A stretch of DNA of 64,000 nucleotides from Parapedobacter koreensis (lineage in GTDB: Bacteria; Bacteroidota; Bacteroidia; Sphingobacteriales; Sphingobacteriaceae), in NCBI RefSeq assembly GCF_900109365.1, contig NZ_FNZR01000009.1:62001-126000 (forward strand), written 5' to 3'. Position 1 is the stretch's first letter. Each line of letters starts with the position of its first letter. The position numbers were made by a program, and so were the translations under genes. The notes beneath the pieces are model-generated. The model was not told the origin of the DNA, searched no databases, and saw only the letters and a list, made by a program, of their open reading frames with translations. Positions 9,960-59,023 of the stretch are shown here, one piece after another.

Positions 9960-10721
9960 CTATTGGGCGGGATTGGCTTCTAATTTCGGCAGTTTGGGCG
10001 CTACCGGGCGACCATCCCGATCAAATTGCTTAAATGACTGGACGATATAAGCAGTAATGTCGTAGTCAGCCCAATACTGTGCTTTTTCGTAAGAAGGGCG
10101 ATACCAAATCATAAAATTGGTCAGGTCGTCACCATCGAGACCGGTCAGCTCCTGGATTTTACCTCTACTGAATTTTTTGTCCACTTCCGTTTCTTCCAGT
10201 TCTTTTTCCATATAATTGCCAAAACGCCGTGCATTGCGGGGTGTACGGCCCAGTAGCTCATAAAGTGACGTAATGGGATTGAAAACATACGCTAAAGCGG
10301 GTGGCTTGCCATTATAATAAACACCCTGTTTCCGATAACCCCGCATGGCGTCATTGAGTTCAGCTTCTTTGCTCATCCGGTTTACATCGACCTGATCAAG
10401 CATGATGCTCCCCGGTCGCATATCGATGAGTATATCACTCAATGTCTTCACTTCGGTGGATATTGGCGTGTATCCCATGATGTTTGCCGTAAGTGTATCC
10501 CCTACCGAAACGTTTAGCTCAAAAGTACCTACACCACTGGAAACCGTGGATTGGCCTGTCTTTTTATTGGTGATCGTCACACTCCCTAACCGATTACTCG
10601 TACCGGCCTCGACGACAATACCCCGAATCGTCCCTGATTCTTGGGCGTAAAGCCATACCGGCGGCAACCAGACGGAAATAATCAGCATGATTTTAGCAAG
10701 ACGACTCCTATGCATTTCCAT
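9960..10721 (-). CDS. Carboxypeptidase-regulatory-like domain protein, exported
   Basis: This is a secreted or periplasmic protein of about 253 residues, with a signal peptide ending near 'WLYAQ'. Residues about 30-105 form a CarboxypepD_reg-like (transthyretin-like) domain: 'GTIRGIVVEAGTSNRLGSVTI', 'TVSSGVGTFELNVSVGDTLTANIMGYTP', as found at the N-terminus of many SusC proteins, but no beta-barrel follows. The C-terminal half (residues 115-253) has the pattern 'NPITSLYELLGRTPRNARRFGNYM', seen in a family of uncharacterised Bacteroidota proteins. Function is unknown; a role at the envelope is inferred only from export. Confidence 0.8.
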   Translation of the reverse strand: MEMHRSRLAKIMLIISVWLPPVWLYAQESGTIRGIVVEAGTSNRLGSVTITNKKTGQSTVSSGVGTFELNVSVGDTLTANIMGYTPISTEVKTLSDILIDMRPGSIMLDQVDVNRMSKEAELNDAMRGYRKQGVYYNGKPPALAYVFNPITSLYELLGRTPRNARRFGNYMEKELEETEVDKKFSRGKIQELTGLDGDDLTNFMIWYRPSYEKAQYWADYDITAYIVQSFKQFDRDGRPVAPKLPKLEANPAQ

Positions 10722-47871: not shown

Positions 47872-50800
47872 ATGATTTTTTGTTCATGTGTTAAAAGCCG
47901 TCCTTGGCTTTTGACAGACCGATTATTACTAACTATGAAACTAACCGTTTTTCTGACCCTGATGACGGTATTGCAGGTAAGCGCTGCGGTAAACGCACAG
48001 ACGATTTCCCTCGAAGTGCGCGACATGCCCTTGCCCGAAGTCATGGAACGCATCCAGGCACAGAGTGGTTATCTTTTCTTCCTGCAAGGGGAAAAATTAG
48101 CGAAGATGAAGGTAAGCGCGCGTATCCAACAGGTTGAGCTTCGTGAGGCCATGGATATGCTCACCGATGATTTAGGACTGGAATGGGTATTGAAAGGCAA
48201 AACCATTATCCTCCGGCCCGCCCCCCCTACCGTGGTTCAGCAGCAGCGTGTCATCCAAGGGACCGTCGTGGATTCCCTGAATAGTCCGCTGGAGGGTGTT
48301 ACGGTCACGGTCAAGGGAACAAGCCGGGCCACTACCACCGATTCCGCTGGCCGTTATCGCCTTACCTTACCAGCGCAAGACAATGCACTGGTTTTTTCGA
48401 TGGTAGGCTTCCAACCCACGGAACTGGCCATCGGTGAATCTGACATGGTCAATGCCACCCTGCATATGTTGACCAGTGACATCAATGAAGTTGTTGTCAT
48501 TGGATACGGTACGACCACGAAGCAAGACCTCACGGCCGCCGTTTCTTCCATTTCGCAGGAAGCATTAGGGCAACGGACAATGGTATCACTGGCCGACGCC
48601 ATGCGCGGTAAAGCCGCTGGGGTACAAATCTCACAGGATGACGGCACACCGGGATCAGCCTTCACCTTCCGGATCCGGGGAGCCAGTTCCATCAGTGCGG
48701 GCAGTACGCCCTTGTTCGTCATCGACGGCGTATTGCAAGACAATGCAGATAACATCAATCCGGGGGATGTTGAGTCCATCGAAATCCTCAAGGATGCATC
48801 CGGTACAGCGATGTATGGCGCCCGTGGGGCAAACGGGGTGGTCATGATTACCACTAAAAGCGGGAAAGCCGGCCGGACAAATGCGGAATTTTATTCCAAC
48901 CTTACCGTCCAGACACCAAGCCGACAGTTTCCGGTAATGGATGCCCAGGAATTTGCACGAGCACGTTTCCTGGCATCGGCATACGTATTTTCTCCTCCGA
49001 GCGCAAGCGACCCCAACGTTCCTGCCAACGTCCTGCCTGAATTTACCTACTTTCGGGACACCCCGCTCGGCGAGCCCGGAGGTTTCTGGGGAGTCGCTCA
49101 GGATGCCCTATACCACGACTGGGAAAATTACGGGTCGCCGGACTCGATCAATACCAACTGGCAGGATGCCATGTTCCAGCATAGCTTGGTACAAGAATAC
49201 CGGCTAAACATTTCCGGCGGTACCGAGAAAACGAAGTTTTCCCTGATGGGTGGTTATTTGGGGCAAGGTGGGCTTGTCGTGTTCAGCGACTACGAACGGC
49301 TAACAGGCCGTTTCAACCTGCAACAGCAATTGTCACCAGCCATTAATATGACCTTGAACCTTTCGGGCGATCACTCCGCGACGAACGGCTTCATCGCCGG
49401 CTCCCTAAATGGTGGCGTCGTTTCCAATACCATCGTTACGGCCATGCTCGCCAAGCCGCCGACGGAGCCCTTGACGCAAAGCGACGTGGAAGACAATGTC
49501 GCCGTCGATGACTACATCACCACGAATCCCTATTCCTTGGCAAAGTATGTCACCAATAACCGGTATCCAACCAATTGGCTGGCCCGATTGAGTTTCGATG
49601 CCAAACTCAACAAACAGTTTACCTATAAGATCACCGGTACCTATTCGACTACCAATGTAAATACGGATGCCTATTATCCGAAGTTCACCGGCTCGGGTTC
49701 GCGGTTCAATGGTCGCGCTTACCTGTCCAGGGGTACGACCACCAAACTGATGAATGAAAATCTGCTGTATTATAAAAACCAATTCGGCGATTCCCATCGG
49801 ATTAATGCGGTCGCCGGGGCCACGTTTGAACGGCAACGAATCAACTTGGTCACGGCAGAAAACCAAAACTACGACATCGAAATCCTGGGAGTCTACGGCC
49901 TTCAAAACGGCACGGTACCCATCATCCCCACCTATAACATCACGGAATGGACAATGGCATCGTTTTTTGGGCGGGCAGAGTACAGCTATAAGGGAAAATA
50001 CCTCCTGACGGGAACATTCCGTGCTGATGGGTCTTCCCGTTTCAGCAGAAGCAGCAAATGGGGGTATTTCCCCTCCGCAGCCATCGCGTGGAACATTTTC
50101 CAAGAAGATTTTATGGAAAATGTACACGCCATATCGAATCTTAAGCTCCGGGCAAGCATTGGGCAAAGCGGAAATACGGCCATACCTTCCTACCTCACGC
50201 TATCTACCATTGGTACGTATTTTTCGCCCATGGATGGCAATACACCCAACTATGGTGTGGTCGTCGAGCGCCCCGAAAACCTCGCGTTGAAATGGGAGAC
50301 CACCACCCAGGTGAATACCGGTCTTGACGTAGGTTTACTGGACAACCGGGTAAACCTGACCGCTGAATGGTATTTGAAGCGAACCCGGGACCTGCTTATC
50401 CAAAAGGTGACCCCGGGTTACAGTGGCTACCGAAGTACCTGGACAAACCTCGGCGCCATCCAAAACAGCGGCGTTGAACTGACCTTATCGACGACCATCT
50501 TCGACAAGCCTGATTTTGCGTGGAATCTCGACGCCAATATCGGTTTCAACCGTTCAAAGGCCCTAGAAGTAGGAGCAGATCTGGGCTTAGATCCCGGCGT
50601 GGTACCCGGCGTGGGAAACAGTGCCTTTATCCGCAATGGACAACCCATAGGCCAGTGGTATGGTTATGTCACCGACGGTATTTATCAATCGTACGAAGAG
50701 ATTCTGTCATCCGGGCTCCGGTCCATCAACGGCCAAGCCATCGCAGCCGTACGGCCGGGTACGCGGCGGTTTATCGATCAAAACGGCGATGGCGTCATTG

Positions 50801-51381
50801 ACGCCAACGACCGGGTGGTACTGGGTACCGGACAACCCGATTTTATGGGCGGGCTCACCAACCTGTTGCAATATAAGCAATTCAGCCTCAATACAGTCAT
50901 CACCTACAGCTACGGCAATCAGGTCTACAACGCCAACCGGGTCGCACTGGAACACGGGCGCAACATCAACAACATGTCCAAAGGGCCTGCCGATGCGTGG
51001 CGGCCAAGCTTGTATGACTTAAATACCGGTGCGTTGGTTGAAACGGGGAATCCCACCAATGTATACCGGATGCCGGGTGGGCCGGAAGAGCTACTGATGC
51101 TGTCGGATTGGGTCGAAGACGGATCGTTCATCCGGTTGTCGGATGTCACCTTGTCCTACAACCTGGGGAATAATGGGATAGCCAAGCTAAAACGTTTTGG
51201 TATCTCAGGTTTAACCGTGTTTGCCAGCGGGAAAAACCTGTGGGTATGGACCGACTACTCCGGTTATGACCCCGAAGTAAATACCCGCCAGGGAAATTTC
51301 GGAGATCTGATGCCATCGCTGGATTATGCTTCCTATCCGCGGTCGCGGATGTATGCCCTTGGTTTTAGGTTGAGTTTTTAA
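47872..51381 (+). CDS. SusC/RagA family TonB-linked outer-membrane channel with STN domain
   Basis: This 1169-residue TonB-dependent transporter imports a glycan or related oligomer with the SusD protein encoded next. Order: signal region (the ATG at 47872 gives a basic N-region; an ATG at 47935 starts MKLTVFLTLMTVLQVSA and could be used instead), STN domain about 45-120 ('SLEVRDMPLPEVMERIQAQSGYLFF'), CarboxypepD_reg-like domain about 125-210, the SusC signature 'NEVVVIGYGTTTKQDLTAAVS', plug ('FRIRGASSISAGSTPLFVIDGV', 'ILKDASGTAMYGARGANGVVMITTKSG') and barrel ending 'MYALGFRLSF'. The STN domain shows it also signals to FecR/ECF sigma. Confidence 0.96.
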   Translation: MIFCSCVKSRPWLLTDRLLLTMKLTVFLTLMTVLQVSAAVNAQTISLEVRDMPLPEVMERIQAQSGYLFFLQGEKLAKMKVSARIQQVELREAMDMLTDDLGLEWVLKGKTIILRPAPPTVVQQQRVIQGTVVDSLNSPLEGVTVTVKGTSRATTTDSAGRYRLTLPAQDNALVFSMVGFQPTELAIGESDMVNATLHMLTSDINEVVVIGYGTTTKQDLTAAVSSISQEALGQRTMVSLADAMRGKAAGVQISQDDGTPGSAFTFRIRGASSISAGSTPLFVIDGVLQDNADNINPGDVESIEILKDASGTAMYGARGANGVVMITTKSGKAGRTNAEFYSNLTVQTPSRQFPVMDAQEFARARFLASAYVFSPPSASDPNVPANVLPEFTYFRDTPLGEPGGFWGVAQDALYHDWENYGSPDSINTNWQDAMFQHSLVQEYRLNISGGTEKTKFSLMGGYLGQGGLVVFSDYERLTGRFNLQQQLSPAINMTLNLSGDHSATNGFIAGSLNGGVVSNTIVTAMLAKPPTEPLTQSDVEDNVAVDDYITTNPYSLAKYVTNNRYPTNWLARLSFDAKLNKQFTYKITGTYSTTNVNTDAYYPKFTGSGSRFNGRAYLSRGTTTKLMNENLLYYKNQFGDSHRINAVAGATFERQRINLVTAENQNYDIEILGVYGLQNGTVPIIPTYNITEWTMASFFGRAEYSYKGKYLLTGTFRADGSSRFSRSSKWGYFPSAAIAWNIFQEDFMENVHAISNLKLRASIGQSGNTAIPSYLTLSTIGTYFSPMDGNTPNYGVVVERPENLALKWETTTQVNTGLDVGLLDNRVNLTAEWYLKRTRDLLIQKVTPGYSGYRSTWTNLGAIQNSGVELTLSTTIFDKPDFAWNLDANIGFNRSKALEVGADLGLDPGVVPGVGNSAFIRNGQPIGQWYGYVTDGIYQSYEEILSSGLRSINGQAIAAVRPGTRRFIDQNGDGVIDANDRVVLGTGQPDFMGGLTNLLQYKQFSLNTVITYSYGNQVYNANRVALEHGRNINNMSKGPADAWRPSLYDLNTGALVETGNPTNVYRMPGGPEELLMLSDWVEDGSFIRLSDVTLSYNLGNNGIAKLKRFGISGLTVFASGKNLWVWTDYSGYDPEVNTRQGNFGDLMPSLDYASYPRSRMYALGFRLSF

Positions 51382-51400: not shown

Positions 51401-53119
51401 ATGAAAAAAATAACCATACGGATGAAAATCGATAACACAAAGCTTTGGATGATCGCATTGCCTTTGCTTTTTATGACATCGAGCTGTGAAAAATTCCTCG
51501 CTGAAGAACCCGAAACACAATACACAGCAGACAACTTTTTTGTCGATAAAGTGACGCTTGATGCAGGCTTGGTCGGCATGTACTCGTCGGCAAAGGACTT
51601 GTTTGGCGTATACACCAACACGCCCCTGTTTATGACGGAGCTGGGTACCGACGAAGCCATGTTCAAGGGTTCCACGGGCGTCCGCTTCAATTTTGACCGG
51701 TATACGTTTTCGATCAACGAAGGTGCTGTCGGCGAATACTGGTTCCGGCATTACGAGATTGCTGCGCGGGCTAATGTACTAATAGACGCCGCGCAAAAGG
51801 TTGAAGCGATTACCGAAGCCCAGCGCAATGAGGTGCTTGGCGAGGCACGGTTTATCCGTGCATTTGTATACTTCCGGCTGGTACAGGCATTTGGCGAACT
51901 GCCCATTGTCGCCGAACCGATTACCGGTGAGTTTGACTATGGACTACCCCGCAGGCCCATTAGCGAAGTATATGATTTTATTCTGGAAGACCTGCGTTTT
52001 GCTACCGGCGAAGGCATACTCACGACCGCCAAAACGAATAACGGGCATGCTAACCACTGGGCTGCCAAAACCTTGCTGGGCAAAGTCTACCTCACCATGG
52101 CCTCGGCCAAGGAGGCGGCAAAAGTACCGGGTTATGCCGGAATACCCCAACCTTCCGATGAATTGTATACGTTGGCGTGGGAGACCTTAAAGGATGTAAA
52201 AGACAATAGCGGAGCCGAGTTATTGCCCGTTTACGGAGACGTATTCAAAATTGAAAACAAAAACGTCAACAAAGAATCTATTTTTGAGCTCCAGTTCAGT
52301 GCCGTTGTACCCTACGGCACCCAATGGACCAAAGAATACGGCATGATTGCCTCGGGCACCATCAATGGCAATCCAGCCTATCACACCAACGCGATGATCG
52401 GGCAATGCAACCTCGTGTATGTCCCCAAATTCTACACCTACTACAAGCCCTCGCTTGATGCGCCGGACTATGATGTGAGGCGGCTCTGGAACCTCACGGA
52501 TTCGATGGTCAACGTGATCAACAACGTTCCCGACTCGCTGACGTATATCTGGGGGACTGCCTATTCACCCGACAACTACAACCAGGTCGTCATGGGTCGT
52601 TGCGGGGTGACAAAATACCGCTGGGGCGACTCCTGGCGCGAGACTTCGGATTACCTCTATTCCAATGCCCCTAATAACGTGATTGTACTCCGCTTTGCGG
52701 ATGTGCTCCTCATGTTTGCAGAAGCGGACTATAAGAAAAACGGGGTGATTTCGGACGAAGGGCTCGAAGCCATCAATCAGGTGCGTCAACGGGCGCGTGG
52801 ACTGGGTGCCAACGGATTGCCGATTCCCGAATCGGAGACTCCCGGCTTCCTCAATTACACGGCCTCGGATATCGATATGGAAGAAATCATGATGGAGCGC
52901 GCGCGGGAGCTATGCTTTGAATTCCAGCGGTGGTTTGACTTGGCGCGTACCGGCATGTTTGAGTATTTCCTCGAAAAAACCCGTTCGGCTTCGTTTACGA
53001 CCATCGTCAATACCAGCACGAACTTCGATCCGGCCAAACATTACCTCTTCCCGATACCCCAAAGCCAGATCGACCTTTCCACCAATCCGGAAGGTTTCCA
53101 ACAGAATCCGAATTACTAA
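51401..53119 (+). CDS. RagB/SusD family nutrient-binding lipoprotein
   Basis: This 572-residue lipoprotein pairs with the SusC upstream (19 nt gap). The lipobox is MTSSC with Cys29. TPR-like N-terminal segments ('EVLGEARFIRAFVYFRLVQAFGELPIV', 'HWAAKTLLGKVYLTMAS') and the C-terminal SusD block ('IMMERARELCFEFQRWFDLARTGM' and 'YLFPIPQSQIDLSTNPEGFQQNPNY') are intact. At 572 residues it is of ordinary length. The ligand cannot be deduced from the sequence. Confidence 0.96.
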   Translation: MKKITIRMKIDNTKLWMIALPLLFMTSSCEKFLAEEPETQYTADNFFVDKVTLDAGLVGMYSSAKDLFGVYTNTPLFMTELGTDEAMFKGSTGVRFNFDRYTFSINEGAVGEYWFRHYEIAARANVLIDAAQKVEAITEAQRNEVLGEARFIRAFVYFRLVQAFGELPIVAEPITGEFDYGLPRRPISEVYDFILEDLRFATGEGILTTAKTNNGHANHWAAKTLLGKVYLTMASAKEAAKVPGYAGIPQPSDELYTLAWETLKDVKDNSGAELLPVYGDVFKIENKNVNKESIFELQFSAVVPYGTQWTKEYGMIASGTINGNPAYHTNAMIGQCNLVYVPKFYTYYKPSLDAPDYDVRRLWNLTDSMVNVINNVPDSLTYIWGTAYSPDNYNQVVMGRCGVTKYRWGDSWRETSDYLYSNAPNNVIVLRFADVLLMFAEADYKKNGVISDEGLEAINQVRQRARGLGANGLPIPESETPGFLNYTASDIDMEEIMMERARELCFEFQRWFDLARTGMFEYFLEKTRSASFTTIVNTSTNFDPAKHYLFPIPQSQIDLSTNPEGFQQNPNY

Positions 53120-53134
53120 AAAATATCCAATCAC

Positions 53135-55399
53135 ATGCTATACAACAGGAATCAAATCATTAAGCTCACCATGAATCATACATTCGGCAAGACCGCTGCA
53201 CGCTTTTTTTTCATCATCAGTATCTTCTTGGTCTTCTCCGGCTATTCGCGGCATGCCGCCGCCCATACCGCTCGCCATGAACCCACATCTGCTGACTTGA
53301 TTGTGTATGGAGGCACGCCAGCAGGCGTCATTGCGGCAGTCGCTGCAGCACGGATGGGCCACTCGGTGATCATCGTTGAGCCACAAGTCCGGATCGGTGG
53401 AATGACCTCAGGTGGGCTTATCCGTACGGACGTGGGCGATGAAGAAACCATTGGCGGGCTATCCAAGGAGTTTTTCAACCGCAATTTGGCCTACTACGTC
53501 AAGCAATACGGCGAAGGATCCAAGCAGGTTGAAAAATCCTACCAAGGTTATTTTACCGAACCCCACGTAGCCGAACAAATCTTTAATGAGATGGTGAAGG
53601 AACAAGCCAACATCACCGTGCTGACCCGTCACCGATTGGTGGACGTGGCTATACAACAGCAGAAAATAGCTTCCATCGCCATTGAACGCGTCGCATCGGG
53701 TGAACAGCAAACCCTCTCGGGGAAGATGTTTATCGATGCAAGCTATGAAGGCGATCTGATGGCCGCAGCAGGCGTACCCTATCGCGTGGGGCGGGAGAGC
53801 CAATGGGAATATAACGAATCCTTTGCCGGAGTCAACTACGGCCCCAAGGAAATCCGTGGAATGGGTGACCATAAACTACAGGCATACAACATCCGGGGTA
53901 CCCTCACGCGGCGCGAAGACATCCGTGTGTTGTTTCCAAAGCCGGATCACTACACGCCTGAACGTTTCGAGGCGATGAAACAGAAAATACTCCAGGAAGG
54001 CTATACGAAGCTGGAAGAATTGATGCCCCATCTCATCGGTGCGGAAATGCCCAATGGCAAACACGATAACAATGATGGCGATTTGCCGGGCGTAAACTTT
54101 GCCTATCCCGAGGCAAACTGGGAAGAACGGCAACAGATCTACGCCATGCACCGCGACCATTGGCTGAGCCTCTTTTACATGCTCCAAAATGACCCTGAAC
54201 TTCCCGAGGCATTCCGTGCAGATGCGCGAAAATGGGGTTTGCCTTCGGATGAATACCCCGAAAACAACCACATCACGCCACAACTTTACGTGCGTGAGGC
54301 CCGGCGGATGGTGGGCAAATATGTGTTGACCCAAAATGATATCCGCACCCACCGCTACAAGGAAACAACCATCTGTGTCGGCAGCTACAACATGGACTGC
54401 CATGTGGTAGATTACCTCATGACAGCAAAAGGAATCGTGCCCGAAGGCGGTTTCATCGAACCCTGCGATGCCTATGAAATCCCTTATGAAATCATTGTAC
54501 CCCACAGCAACGAAAACCTTCTGGTCATTGGTGGTTTTTCGGCCACCCACGTGGCTTATGGATCGGCCCGCATGGAGCCCGTATTCATGATGCTGGGCCA
54601 TGCTGGAGGGTTGGCAGCACACCTTGCCCTGCAATCCGGTAGCGCGGTGCAGGATGTAGCCGTCAAGCAGCTACAATCCCTGCTGACCCAGCAAGGTGCC
54701 ATATTGAAAGCCCCTTACCTGCCGGATGTGGCCATCCATTTCACGCCGGCCGAACCCAAAGTGGGCGAAGAAGTAACGTTTACCGTGGAGGAAAAGGATG
54801 TCCGCGCTCCACTCAAAAAAATCTGGTGGAGCCTGGACGGAACGGGAGAAATCAACGCCACTGACAAAATGGTTAAACACACGTTCACTTCAGCGAAGGT
54901 CAACGAGATTACCCTACTGGTGGAAGACGAAAACGGATTGCGTTCGCCATTTATCAAGGCAGAAGTCCCTGTCGGCGAATCGGCTATCCGTGACGTGAAT
55001 GTAGAAGCCGAAGACGGCGAAATAACAGGCGAATGGATCCGCTCGCGCTCGCCAAATTATGATTTCCGGCTGCTGTATATCGACGGCGACACGAAAAAAG
55101 GTGGGAAAAAAACGCGGTTTGTCCCCGATTTGCCTAAAACCGGCCGGTACATGGTTTCGGTTGCCTATTCACCGGGTGAAAACCGGGCGACGAATGTACC
55201 CGTCACCATCCAGCATAGCGACGGCACCAGCAACGTTACGCTGGACCAATCTACGGCCAGTACCCTTTTTGTGTACAAGCCCTTGGGGGAATTCCGCTTC
55301 GAGGAAGGCGAATCGGGCTGGGTGGAAATCAGCAATGCAGGAACCACCGGACAGGTCGTTGTAGATGCAGTAAAATGGATCTGGCTCGGTGATGAATAG
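53135..55399 (+). CDS. FAD-dependent oxidoreductase with C-terminal Golvesin/xanthan-lyase-like domain
   Basis: This is a 754-residue exported flavoprotein. After a signal peptide (start ATG 53135, or 53171), the FAD-binding fold begins with 'DLIVYGGTPAGVIAAVAAAR', a variant dinucleotide motif, then 'GGMTSGGLIRTD' and 'KMFIDASYEGDLMAAAGVPYRVGRE', the signature of the FAD_oxidored family (Pfam PF12831). A conserved 'YVREARRMVGKYVLTQND' and 'GSARMEPVFMMLGHAG' follow. From about residue 530 come beta-sandwich segments, ending in a Golvesin/Xly CBD-like domain ('RFVPDLPKTGRYMVSVAYSPGENRATNVPVTI'). It resembles proteins annotated as xanthan lyases, but the catalytic part is an oxidoreductase. Substrate is probably a carbohydrate. 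Confidence 0.88.
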   Translation: MLYNRNQIIKLTMNHTFGKTAARFFFIISIFLVFSGYSRHAAAHTARHEPTSADLIVYGGTPAGVIAAVAAARMGHSVIIVEPQVRIGGMTSGGLIRTDVGDEETIGGLSKEFFNRNLAYYVKQYGEGSKQVEKSYQGYFTEPHVAEQIFNEMVKEQANITVLTRHRLVDVAIQQQKIASIAIERVASGEQQTLSGKMFIDASYEGDLMAAAGVPYRVGRESQWEYNESFAGVNYGPKEIRGMGDHKLQAYNIRGTLTRREDIRVLFPKPDHYTPERFEAMKQKILQEGYTKLEELMPHLIGAEMPNGKHDNNDGDLPGVNFAYPEANWEERQQIYAMHRDHWLSLFYMLQNDPELPEAFRADARKWGLPSDEYPENNHITPQLYVREARRMVGKYVLTQNDIRTHRYKETTICVGSYNMDCHVVDYLMTAKGIVPEGGFIEPCDAYEIPYEIIVPHSNENLLVIGGFSATHVAYGSARMEPVFMMLGHAGGLAAHLALQSGSAVQDVAVKQLQSLLTQQGAILKAPYLPDVAIHFTPAEPKVGEEVTFTVEEKDVRAPLKKIWWSLDGTGEINATDKMVKHTFTSAKVNEITLLVEDENGLRSPFIKAEVPVGESAIRDVNVEAEDGEITGEWIRSRSPNYDFRLLYIDGDTKKGGKKTRFVPDLPKTGRYMVSVAYSPGENRATNVPVTIQHSDGTSNVTLDQSTASTLFVYKPLGEFRFEEGESGWVEISNAGTTGQVVVDAVKWIWLGDE

Positions 55400-56138
55400 G
55401 AAAACATTTATTTGGGATTTGGGTGCCCTGACCGCCGGTTTCTCCGGACTGAGCTGGGCAGGGCACCCCTCCTATCTCAATCAAAGCAGTGAAGACGAGC
55501 CGTTGGTCGTGAATGCCGGGGTAAACGGCAACAATACACGGAACCTGCTGGCGCGGGTAGCACAAGACTGCCTGTCTCACCGGCCGGATCTGGTCATTCT
55601 CATGGTCGGCACAAACGACATGAACCACGGCAAGTACGTACCACTCAACGAATATGAAGCCAACCTCACCAAGCTTGCCGATCAACTAACAGCCAGTGGG
55701 AGTCGGCTGCTATTGCTGAGTATGCTGCCATTTTATGAACCTTATCTGCTGACCCGGCATCCGGAGGAGTTCTTCCAGCCCGAGGGTCCATCGGGACGAC
55801 GGGCCGCATACAATGCCGTGATTGAAAAGGTGGCGCATGAAAGCGGCACTGCCTTTTTTGATATCGGGAAGATCTTCGAAAGAATCGGAAAAATCGGGCT
55901 GGATAACGATTCGCTGCTCCGCAACGAAGCTAACAGCGGTCGGACCGACGGTGTCCATCCCACACCGAACGGCTATCGCTTCCTCGCCTTAGCCGTCGGT
56001 CAATTTATCCAATATCACCAGCTCCCGATGAGGCGAATCGTCTGTTTCGGTGATAGCATCACCCGTGGCGACGGGTCGGTGGATAAAGAAAGTTATCCGG
56101 CTTATTTACGTAAATTGTTTATATTAACAACGTTATGA
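55392..56138 (+). CDS. SGNH/GDSL hydrolase with apparently circularly permuted active-site blocks
   Basis: This 248-residue hydrolase has all SGNH blocks in an unusual order: 'NAGVNGNNTR' (block II region, about residues 41-50), GTND (73-76, block III), DGVHPT (186-191, block V, Asp and His) and only then IVCFGDSITRG (block I, Ser222). In the normal family GDS is at the N-terminus. The segment following block I, YPAYLRKL (235-242), resembles HPSYLNQ (25-31) near the N-terminus, as if the N-terminal part had been moved to the end. The N-terminus (NRKTFIWDLGALTAGFSGLS) looks like a Tat-type signal. ATG at 55392 is preferred to GTG at 55389. It overlaps both FAD-oxidoreductase genes, so is translationally coupled. 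Confidence 0.85.
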   Translation: MNRKTFIWDLGALTAGFSGLSWAGHPSYLNQSSEDEPLVVNAGVNGNNTRNLLARVAQDCLSHRPDLVILMVGTNDMNHGKYVPLNEYEANLTKLADQLTASGSRLLLLSMLPFYEPYLLTRHPEEFFQPEGPSGRRAAYNAVIEKVAHESGTAFFDIGKIFERIGKIGLDNDSLLRNEANSGRTDGVHPTPNGYRFLALAVGQFIQYHQLPMRRIVCFGDSITRGDGSVDKESYPAYLRKLFILTTL

Positions 56139-57796
56139 AAAAACTAAAAACGGTACTGTTTGCGCTAATTGCGCTATTAACCATTACGAGTTGTTCGTCT
56201 CCAGCCACGGATCACGCTGAAGCCGACATCATTATCTATGGTGGCACAGCCTCCGCGATCACCGCGGCGGTACAAGCTAAGCAACTGGGTAAATCGGTCA
56301 TTGTGGTGTCGCCCGACAACCATTTGGGCGGCCTGTCTTCGGGTGGGCTGGGCTTTACCGACACAGGGGACAAGTCTACCATCGGTGGCCTCGCCCGTGA
56401 CTTCTACCACCGGGTCTACCTCCATTATGAAGACAGTGCGGCATGGCGCTGGCAGCAACATTCGGAGTATGGCAACAAGGGGCAGGGCACACCGGCTATT
56501 GATGGCAATGCCCGCACAATGTGGATATTCGAGCCCCACGTAGCCGAAAGCGTATTTGAAAGCTATGTGGACGAAAATGGCCTAGACGTGCGCCGCGACG
56601 AGTGGCTGGACCGTGATTCAGGTGTGGCAGTGGAAAACGGCCAAATCGTTTCCATCACGACGTTGAGCGGAACGACCTACCGGGGCAAGATGTTCATCGA
56701 TGCCACCTATGAAGGCGACTTGATGGCCGCGGCCGGAGTCAGCTACCACGTAGGACGGGAGGCAAACAGCGTATACGACGAACAGTGGAACGGTATCCAG
56801 ACCGGTGTACTGCATCACAAACACTGGTTTGCATCGGATATCAGCCCCTATCAGGTCCCCGGCGACAGCACCAGCGGTTTGCTGTACGGCGTATCGACGG
56901 ATCCGCCGGGTGAATACGGACAGGGCGATCATCGTTTGCAAGCCTACTGTTTCCGTATGTGCCTGAGCAATCACCCGGACAACCGCGTCGCTTTTCCGAA
57001 ACCGGATGGTTATAATCCAGCGCACTATGAATTGTTGGCACGCGTATTTGCCTCGGGCTGGCGGGAGACGTTCGAGAAGTTCGACCCCATTCCCAATCGC
57101 AAAACGGACACCAATAACCACGGCCCATTCAGCACGGACTTCATTGGCATGAACTACGACTATCCCGAGGCCAGCTATGAACGGCGCCGGGAAATCATTA
57201 AAGAACATGAGGATTACCAAAAGGGCTTGATGTATTTCTTGGCCAACGATCCAAAAGTGCCCGAAGAAGTCAGGGAGGAAATGGCACAATGGGGGCTGGC
57301 CAAAGACGAATTTACCGACAATGGCAACTGGCCACACCAACTGTACATCCGGGAAGCCCGGCGCATGGTAGGTCAATACGTGATGACCGAGCACGACACC
57401 TTCAGCGAGCGGGAAATCACCGACCCTATAGGCATGGGATCGTACACGCTCGATTCGCATAACGCACAGCGCTACATAAAGCCGGACGGATTTGTACAAA
57501 ATGAAGGCGACATTGGCGTCAGCACAAAGAAAGGGCCTTACCGCATTTCCTATGGCTCAATCATCCCCAAGAAAGGGGAATGTGCAAACCTATTGGTACC
57601 CGTATGCCTATCCAGCTCACATATCGCCTTCGGCAGCATCCGCATGGAGCCGGTGTTTATGATCCTCGGCCAGAGCGCCGCTCTTGCGGCCTCACTGGCC
57701 ATCGATGGCGATATGGCCGTGCAGGACGTGGACTACGCCGATTTGGAAAAAGCATTGCTGGAACAGCAGCAAGTACTGTCAAAACCCAACAAGTAA
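56135..57796 (+). CDS. FAD-dependent oxidoreductase, lipoprotein
   Basis: This 553-residue protein is a paralogue of the one at 53135. It has a lipobox TITSC (Cys20), then 'DIIIYGGTASAITAAVQAKQLG', 'GGLSSGGLGFTDTG', 'MFIDATYEGDLMAAAGVSYHVGREA', 'YIREARRMVGQYVMTEHD' and 'SIRMEPVFMILGQSAALAA'. It lacks the C-terminal beta domains of its partner. The tandem arrangement around the SGNH hydrolase, with 4-nt overlap (ATGA), suggests a coordinated exported pathway, perhaps oxidising then deacylating a sugar. Substrate unknown. Confidence 0.88.
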   Translation: MKKLKTVLFALIALLTITSCSSPATDHAEADIIIYGGTASAITAAVQAKQLGKSVIVVSPDNHLGGLSSGGLGFTDTGDKSTIGGLARDFYHRVYLHYEDSAAWRWQQHSEYGNKGQGTPAIDGNARTMWIFEPHVAESVFESYVDENGLDVRRDEWLDRDSGVAVENGQIVSITTLSGTTYRGKMFIDATYEGDLMAAAGVSYHVGREANSVYDEQWNGIQTGVLHHKHWFASDISPYQVPGDSTSGLLYGVSTDPPGEYGQGDHRLQAYCFRMCLSNHPDNRVAFPKPDGYNPAHYELLARVFASGWRETFEKFDPIPNRKTDTNNHGPFSTDFIGMNYDYPEASYERRREIIKEHEDYQKGLMYFLANDPKVPEEVREEMAQWGLAKDEFTDNGNWPHQLYIREARRMVGQYVMTEHDTFSEREITDPIGMGSYTLDSHNAQRYIKPDGFVQNEGDIGVSTKKGPYRISYGSIIPKKGECANLLVPVCLSSSHIAFGSIRMEPVFMILGQSAALAASLAIDGDMAVQDVDYADLEKALLEQQQVLSKPNK

Positions 57797-57799
57797 CCC

Positions 57800-59023
57800 A
57801 TGAATGTAAAAACCAAACTCATTGCCGCCGTCACCGTGGCGGCCCTCGGTTACTTCGTAGACATCTATGACCTGCTCCTGTTCAGCATCGTGCGCGTGGC
57901 ATCCCTCCAGGACCTCGGTCTCAGCGGTCAGCAGCTCACCAACACCGGCATCCTCCTGCTGGACATCCAGATGGCAGGCATGCTCATCGGCGGCATCGCC
58001 TGGGGTATCCTCGGCGATAAGAAAGGACGCCTCTCCGTCCTGTTCGGATCCATCCTCATGTATTCCATCGCCAATGTTGCCAACGGGTTTGTCACCTCCG
58101 TCACCCAATACGCCATCTGGCGCTTCATCGCAGGCCTCGGCCTGGCCGGTGAGCTCGGTGCCGGTATCACCCTCGTGGCCGAACTCATGCCCCGCGAAAA
58201 ACGCGGCTTTGCTACCACGCTCGTCGCCTCCGTGGGCATATCCGGTGCCGTGGTCGCCTACCTCGTGTCCGACTTCTTCCACTGGCGCACCTCCTTCTTC
58301 ATCGGCGGTGGGCTCGGCCTGGCCCTGCTCCTGCTCCGCATCGGCGTGGCCGAGTCCGGCATGTTTGACCATGCCAAAAAAACCGTGGGAAACCGCGGCG
58401 ACTTCTTCGGCCTGTTCCGCTCCCGCAAAAACCTGCTCAAGTACCTCCGCTGCATCCTCATCGGCATGCCCCTGTGGTACGTGGTGGGCATACTCGTCAC
58501 CCTGTCACCCGAGTTTGGCAGGCTGCTCGGCGTAAGGGGCGACATCAGCGGCGGGCAGGCCATCGCCTGGTGCTACGGCGGCATGACACTCGGCGACATT
58601 GCCAGCGGCCTGCTCAGCCAGGCGCTCCGCAGCCGCCTGAAAGTGGTCTATACCTTCTTGGGCATCGCCGTCGCCAGCATTGGCATTTACTTCTTCCTTA
58701 CCCCGCAAAGCCTGGGCGCCTTTTACCTGCTCTGCGGCCTGCTGGGCTTCTCCGTGGGCTACTGGGTCATTTTCATGACCATAGCCACCGAGCAGTTCGG
58801 CACCAATATCCGCGCCACGGTCACCACCACCGCGCCCAACTTCGCCCGCGGCGCGCTTGTGCCATCCACCATCCTCTTCCACCTGGTGACCCAGTGGACG
58901 GGCTCCATGGTTACCGGCGGGCTCACCGTCGGTGTCCTATTGCTCGCACTGGCCTTCTGGGCGACTCTGGGCATGAAAGAAACCTTCCATAAGGACTTGG
59001 ATTATGTGGAGGAGCTAAACTAA
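57800..59023 (+). CDS. Major facilitator superfamily transporter
   Basis: This 407-residue inner-membrane transporter has about 12 helices and the MFS signature 'GGIAWGILGDKKGRLSVLFGS' between helices 2 and 3, with 'RFIAGLGLAGELGAGITLVAELMPREKRG' after helix 4, a pattern of the sugar/organic-acid transporter group. It lies three bases after the second FAD oxidoreductase and probably imports the product of the exported enzymes. The gene is much richer in G+C than its neighbours (third positions nearly all C or G), a sign of a different origin or strong codon selection. Confidence 0.9.
   Translation: MNVKTKLIAAVTVAALGYFVDIYDLLLFSIVRVASLQDLGLSGQQLTNTGILLLDIQMAGMLIGGIAWGILGDKKGRLSVLFGSILMYSIANVANGFVTSVTQYAIWRFIAGLGLAGELGAGITLVAELMPREKRGFATTLVASVGISGAVVAYLVSDFFHWRTSFFIGGGLGLALLLLRIGVAESGMFDHAKKTVGNRGDFFGLFRSRKNLLKYLRCILIGMPLWYVVGILVTLSPEFGRLLGVRGDISGGQAIAWCYGGMTLGDIASGLLSQALRSRLKVVYTFLGIAVASIGIYFFLTPQSLGAFYLLCGLLGFSVGYWVIFMTIATEQFGTNIRATVTTTAPNFARGALVPSTILFHLVTQWTGSMVTGGLTVGVLLLALAFWATLGMKETFHKDLDYVEELN

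Follow-up and report, generated by a model that had tools for sequence, protein, structure and literature searches.

Does a gene whose product carries the catalytic blocks of the SGNH hydrolases in an altered order encode a rearranged enzyme or the remnant of a broken one? The question is raised by a 64,000-nucleotide stretch of the Parapedobacter koreensis genome (RefSeq assembly GCF_900109365.1, contig NZ_FNZR01000009.1, positions 62,001 to 126,000 of the forward strand), hereafter the window, in whose numbering coordinates are given and all of whose features described below lie on the plus strand. The gene occupies 55392–56138 and is an intact open reading frame of 248 amino acids plus stop, with an alternative GTG start 3 bases 5' of the annotated one. 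SGNH enzymes are usually described with the catalytic serine first in the chain, and all the published exceptions that we found have a single other rotation in common; in the window protein the serine comes last. An earlier inspection of the DNA, made without database searches (the sequence-only reading), had placed block III at residue 73, block V at 186 and block I at 220, the reverse of the usual order, and had proposed a circular permutation. Both the order and the proposal are upheld here: the protein is well supported as a circularly permuted SGNH hydrolase, opened between blocks I and II, because the order is conserved, the catalytic residues are invariant, and the rotation tests, the predicted fold and a one-sided grouping in trees all agree with it.

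Block order and circular permutation

The chain opens with a putative export signal at residues 1–23 (MNRKTF..., 55392–55460), recognised from its sequence as twin-arginine translocation (Tat)-like with RK in place of RR, behind which the domain has its new N-terminal edge in strand beta-2 and block II (VVNAGVNG, residues 39–46, 55506–55529; VVNAG starts at residue 39 and GVNG spans 43–46, with Gly46 as the oxyanion residue). Then follow block III, GTND at residues 73–76 (55608–55619, oxyanion Asn75), block V, DGVH at residues 186–189 (55947–55958, Asp186 and His189), and the C-terminally displaced block I, CFGDS at residues 218–222 (56043–56057, nucleophile Ser222). The protein ends in helix alpha-1 (YPAYLRKLFILTTL, 56094–56135), whose YPAYL motif occupies residues 235–239 and has a YPxxL-type counterpart in 94 of 94 family tails. 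Thus, the Ser, Gly, Asn, His and Asp of blocks I, II, III and V and a predicted alpha/beta/alpha fold are those of the SGNH family, but the usual order I-II-III-V is replaced by II-III-V-I (G46, N75, D186/H189, S222), and the protein is therefore filed as a permuted SGNH variant. The cysteine that stands two residues ahead of the GDS glycine (C218) is a side feature of the displaced block, shared by 93 of 93 permuted members.

This order is neither chance nor a local accident. A scan of genome contigs returned 309 relatives among 466 candidate stretches, and among the best 80 of the 309, 79 carry the permuted order with a chain that ends 19–34 residues past GDS; homologues with the same order, which the sequence-only reading had proposed to search for, thus exist, the sole exception (L096, Niabella defluvii, about 10000–10593) being frameshifted. 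One of the two search patterns, I[VI]CFGDSI, was taken from the C-terminal block I and favours permuted members; some loci also end early at contig ends, and the pair L039 and L090 belongs to one genome, while L034 is the same as G005. In a sample of the family, a full-length permuted match (a row reaching at least profile position 233 of 237, with at most nine candidates scored per genome) was found in 28 of 301 genomes, own genome included, and three relatives in nearby genomes have the same block order, preceded in one case by a long N-terminal region. Across 93 distinct sequences (the window protein and others with 29–63% identity to it), N75, D186, H189, C218, G220, D221 and S222 are each invariant, while 91 retain G46.

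The permutation can be undone in silico. Against a profile of canonical SGNH proteins (24 proteins selected by a loosened regular expression), the score of the window protein, taken as the best single-domain score, peaks when the chain is made to start at residue 209 (111.5 versus 92.9 for the native chain). Derotation raises the score of 94 of 94 permuted members by a median of 23 bits (range 5.2–30.1) and moves the median point of entry into the profile from position 49 to position 9, while the canonical proteins, when rotated likewise, score better in 0 of 24 cases. On the Pfam model PF13472, the native protein without its signal matches positions 32–177 of 178 at 94.7 bits, leaving the model's block I unmatched, and the chain with its C-terminal piece moved to the front matches 1–177 at 97.7 bits, compared with 85.6 and 81.1 bits for rotation at two other points and 81.2 bits when the moved piece is shuffled.

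The predicted structure is of one piece with these results. An AlphaFold2 model built on a 90-row alignment has a mean predicted local distance difference test score (pLDDT) of 90.0 and a predicted template modelling score of 0.83, with blocks II, III and V and the C-terminal strand at residues 215–220 at a pLDDT of about 97; strand 38–43 corresponds to beta-2, and a helix runs from 235 to 247. Its SGNH fold is apparent from the 50 PDB matches listed (Z 13.2–17.6 over 143–173 residues, mostly model residues 31–214), nearly all of which are SGNH/GDSL proteins by title. In 46 of these 50 the alignment starts at PDB chain residue 30 or later, past the block I region of the solved protein. In the SGNH fold, strand beta-1 neighbours strand beta-2 in the sheet; the assignment of residues 38–43 to beta-2 thus fits a C-terminal strand in the usual place of beta-1, and the model read with this topology would put that strand beside beta-2 of the same chain.

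Several points weigh against the permutation. The 24 canonical controls are the training sequences of the profile against which they were scored, and the gain from derotation in Pfam is modest (94.7 to 97.7 bits for PF13472, 65.4 to 76.6 bits for PF00657). The full native protein even outscores the derotated one on PF13472, at 99.8 bits, through a chance alignment of its signal peptide with block I. In the model, residues 221–248, which comprise the nucleophile and the tail, are less confident (pLDDT 84–88), and 4 of the 50 PDB matches listed (1z8h, 1vjg, 9hi4 and 8zbc) start near the N-terminus of their chain. Mutual information with average product correction, noisy on an alignment with an effective number of 73 sequences (A2), did not yield contacts by which the C-terminal piece could be placed.

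The native Pfam score also bears on how such a rearrangement can escape notice. Automatic annotation reports a nearly complete PF13472 (Lipase_GDSL_2) domain for the window protein (3.2e-28; 99.8 bits versus a gathering cut-off of 32.9; residues 13–196, model positions 6–177) because the stretch DLGALTAGF of the signal peptide resembles block I, and this mimicry by a Tat-like signal may be the reason that the permutation goes unnoticed. As for the signal itself, the Tat-like export that the sequence-only reading had suggested is plausible for the family, in which a rough script found an RR motif in 37 of 94 permuted members and a hydrophobic stretch in 75 of 94; it is weakly shown for the window protein, which has RK, a hydrophobic stretch below the script's rough cut-off and a signal region with a pLDDT of 50–59. 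From these sequence features the permuted family is likely exported.

Genomic partners and the predicted reaction

The surroundings of the gene place it in an uptake context. A SusC-like outer-membrane transporter (47872–51381), assigned by its membership of a SusC-like homology cluster, and a SusD-like lipoprotein (51401–53119; PF07980, PF14322) are followed by a PF12831 flavin adenine dinucleotide (FAD) oxidoreductase with a C-terminal Golvesin_C domain (53135–55399), whose last bases overlap the first ones of the permuted gene, and a second PF12831 FAD oxidoreductase with a lipoprotein-like signal (56135–57796) begins in a 4-base overlap (ATGA) with its end. The permuted gene thus shares a few bases with each of its two PF12831 neighbours, an arrangement like that of operons with translational coupling; the next gene in line, a major facilitator superfamily transporter (57800–59023, PF07690), may or may not belong to the same operon. 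A weak PKD-like match, below the Pfam cut-off, lies ahead of Golvesin_C in the upstream flavoprotein. With its SusC/SusD pair beside genes for putative degradative enzymes, the window has the make-up of a polysaccharide utilization locus, and the enzymes of the locus may act on a polysaccharide.

The association with PF12831 (FAD_oxidored) flavoproteins extends to relatives of the gene, of which they are the conserved genomic partners. Neighbourhoods were counted in 74 of 81 loci (the 80 and the window), seven (L033, L073, L079, L092, L093, L096 and L100) being excluded since a simple gene caller missed the permuted gene there; Pfam was run on the representative of the PF12831 cluster and on both members from the window. 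A gene of this homology cluster occurs within five genes in 64 of the 74 loci and is the direct same-strand neighbour in 51 (52 genes, 40 downstream and 12 upstream, the window having both), and a PF12831-type gene directly adjoins on the opposite strand in 0 of 74. Among the excluded loci, tblastn detected a PF12831-type gene at four of the seven (L033, L073, L093 and L096) and none in the examined stretch of L079, L092 and L100. The SusD cluster is present within five genes in 50 of 74 loci and the SusC cluster in 48 of 74, with the exact cassette sigma-FecR-SusC-SusD-permuted SGNH-PF12831 in 18. The window genome holds three near full-length PF12831 matches: the two that flank the permuted gene and a third that is not beside any permuted gene.

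What the permuted protein might do can be read from its fold and its partners: it is, with high probability, an SGNH-fold serine hydrolase of permuted build, likely an O-acyl esterase in one pathway with the PF12831 flavoenzyme. In the proposed mechanism, the front of the chain (beta-1, the GDS nucleophile elbow that it carries, and helix alpha-1) would have been transferred to the C-terminus, giving G-N-H-S instead of S-G-N-H, and the C-terminal strand 215–220 would slot into the usual place in the sheet and so rebuild an ordinary active site. Ser222 would act as the nucleophile with His189 and Asp186, and the oxyanion hole would be formed by the backbone nitrogens of Ser222 and Gly46 together with Asn75. 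The enzyme would then most likely take O-acyl groups, probably acetyl, off a glycan or glycoside that the SusC/SusD pair handles. By analogy, an O-acetyl ester on a sugar is the most likely substrate, as acetyl xylan esterases are among the enzyme's closest relatives of known structure (the best by profile being 7ddy, E 9.4e-27). As a first guess, deacylation would precede oxidation by the flavoenzyme.

The second guess inverts this order: the flavoenzyme would first make a lactone or ester by oxidising a sugar or alcohol, and this product would be hydrolysed by the permuted enzyme. The recurrence of the exact cassette suggests that the pair may make up a separate pathway, and the model of the downstream flavoprotein (pLDDT 91) resembles general FAD enzymes, being like FAD dehydrogenases of the fumarate reductase or ketosteroid dehydrogenase kind in Foldseek and like thioredoxin reductases in VIA-align; neither match points to a specific substrate class, and phmmer at 1e-3 returned no PDB relative for the protein. 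The acetyl xylan esterases among the best solved relatives of the hydrolase speak against an oxidation-first order, as do genes for glycoside hydrolases (GH28, GH76, GH88, GH97) or sulfatases at other loci, found by scanning cluster representatives, which fit glycan breakdown. On balance, oxidation first is unlikely, though more probable than the other alternatives considered.

The esterase pathway has its own difficulties. Gene order is the basis for the predicted substrate and for a cooperation with the flavoenzyme, 10 of the 74 loci have no PF12831-type gene within five genes, and in the examined stretches of the seven non-Bacteroidota loci tblastn found a PF12831-type homologue at one (L093, about 30% identity). 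Five further loci were examined: there is no PF12831 neighbour at G613, G477, G265 (where the contig ends just past the gene) and G193, and in the fifth, G425, a distant homologue lies three genes downstream. Because these 10 loci, most non-Bacteroidota loci and most of the further ones lack the neighbour, the PF12831 linkage is a feature of the main Bacteroidota branch. The divergent-branch loci with surroundings examined (L175, identical with G193, and L174, identical with G265) have no PF12831 neighbour. The coupling to two FAD oxidoreductases that had been proposed from the window alone thus stands as conserved gene linkage in Bacteroidota and not as biochemistry. In compact Bacteroidota SusCD loci this linkage points to an uncharacterised uptake-and-processing pathway.

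A transferase is the other reaction to be considered, for the permuted SGNH proteins found in the literature are O-acetyltransferases: AlgJ, AlgX, PatB1 and WssI are described as having circularly permuted SGNH cores with the order H-S-G-N and altered blocks (PMC9487903, PMC4148444, PMC10302187). The window protein is like AlgX/AlgJ, the DHHW protein PatB1 and WssI in having a circularly permuted core and differs from them in its rotation, G-N-H-S against H-S-G-N. Those proteins are presented there as O-acetyltransferases in polymer modification, with a block III Tyr and a block V DxH in AlgX and AlgJ, whereas the window family retains hydrolase-type blocks, with N75 and the D and H of DxxH in 93 of 93 sequences. 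Moreover, the loci resemble clusters for uptake and degradation rather than for polymer synthesis, and the window protein has no AlgX-type Pfam match at 0.01. An acyltransferase is therefore quite improbable.

The esterase reading is closer to the canonical PF13472 SGNH/GDSL enzymes, such as 7ddy (AlAXEase), Axe2 and the GDSL-like lipases 3p94 and 1yzf, which share the blocks, catalytic residues and fold of the window protein; unlike them, it has a C-terminal block I, the order G-N-H-S and a cut between alpha-1 and beta-2. A parallel may also be drawn with the FjoAcXE-type acetyl xylan esterases of Bacteroidota, which are SGNH esterases with a signal sequence, features predicted for the window protein too, FjoAcXE itself being encoded in a polysaccharide utilization locus (PMC5863359, PMC9105624). 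As described there, they differ in their canonical order (Ser ahead of Gly and Asn), an N-terminal carbohydrate-binding-module-like domain and a GNSI motif. Among 38 PDB sequences matching the permuted profile at 1e-10, none aligned past profile position 187 of 223, so that this search brought up no experimental structure with the permuted order; the literature matches listed, from a coverage without most subscription journals and preprints, do not report the order G-N-H-S. For these two reasons the rotation appears, from sequence comparison, to be a further and apparently unreported variant of the SGNH fold. A second rotation with hydrolase-type blocks would mean that the fold tolerates a cut right behind the nucleophile.

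Integrity and origin of the permuted chain

A permuted order might also be served by two chains, the C-terminal block I of one completing the active site of its neighbour in a strand-swapped dimer. The model is of a monomer alone, and its tail from residue 221 onward is the least confident ordered part, which leaves room for such an exchange; strand 215–220, however, is modelled at about 97, and beta-2 (38–43), on the fold topology given above, fits a neighbour in the same chain. We regard the swapped dimer as highly improbable beside a single permuted chain.

The sequence-only reading had offered as its alternative a remnant of two tandem hydrolases, and the extent of the frames bears on this directly. 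In 105 of 110 loci examined (L031–L140) the pattern holds, with the frame ending 19–34 residues past GDS and, among these, no frame running into a second domain, the outcome that had been named as fatal to a permutation. The five that do not fit are the frameshifted L096, L133 with an in-frame TAG, L138, which is permuted on inspection, and the canonical L139 and L140. Nor does any of the 94 members have a block I ahead of block II, eight regular-expression matches upstream of block III being the GGNST of block II. A tandem remnant, or a frameshifted or truncated gene without a working enzyme, is thus extremely improbable: a headless first copy fused to the head of a second would give the identical order, and L096 and the TAG-bearing copy of G263 (L133) are indeed broken, but the compact architecture and invariant residues recur across Bacteroidota, Verrucomicrobiota, Lentisphaerota, Kiritimatiellota and Planctomycetota. 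The broken L133 copy lies at about 1520–2150, and its genome is one of the 28 counted in the family sample.

The supposed scar of the permutation was rejected as well. The sequence-only reading had taken the resemblance of YPxYL to an N-terminal HPSYL as a sign of duplication and trimming; a counterpart of HPSYL is present in just 1 of the 94 members, which is the window protein, so that this likeness directly after the putative export signal is due to chance.

In trees of derotated sequences, a single branch separates 46 permuted rows from 40 canonical ones (Shimodaira-Hasegawa-like approximate likelihood ratio test support 90), and the grouping recurs with weaker support (78) when the block I columns are omitted. 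These trees were quick and have some long branches, and the 40 canonical rows were thinned from 52; as sequence trees go, they do not contradict a single origin of the permuted form, though they fall short of proof.

By record titles, 7 of the 80 loci lie outside Bacteroidota, which supply the rest: three are from Verrucomicrobiota (L082, L091, L100), two from Lentisphaerota (L079, L093) and one each from Kiritimatiellota (L080) and Planctomycetota (L092), and occurrence outside Bacteroidota is known from these seven. In a sample of the phylum, with up to seven candidates scored per genome, a full-length permuted match was found in 4 of 395 genomes (G000, G425, G613 and G477), the match in the other 25 matching genomes being confined to the first part of the profile. 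A scan of viral contigs yielded no relative, and plasmid records yielded partial matches alone, 0 of 14 spanning 80% of the query. In light of this, we put forward tentatively, as somewhat less probable than an even chance, a scenario in which the G-N-H-S rotation arose once and spread through Bacteroidota and into Verrucomicrobiota, Lentisphaerota, Kiritimatiellota and Planctomycetota, and in which, in Bacteroidota, it would supply the esterase of a conserved pathway whose second enzyme is the PF12831 flavoenzyme, a pathway encoded in its simplest form by minimal SusCD loci with no other recognised degradative gene alongside.

Some neighbouring GH29-like proteins that match the permuted protein were set aside, as they have, or adjoin, a canonical-order SGNH domain. 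A canonical-order domain of the GNS type is found in neighbours at L098, L107 and L094, so that both orders occur in one locus; at L098 it is fused behind a domain that we take, from its sequence, to be GH29-like. In 10 of 94 members more than 150 residues precede the permuted domain (e.g., L028:4398–6374 and L081:8696–10702); Pfam detects a Beta_helix domain in L081 and no such domain in L028 at 0.001. Divergent permuted branches are represented by L134–L138, at E values of 8.5e-41 to 1.3e-19 against profile A1.

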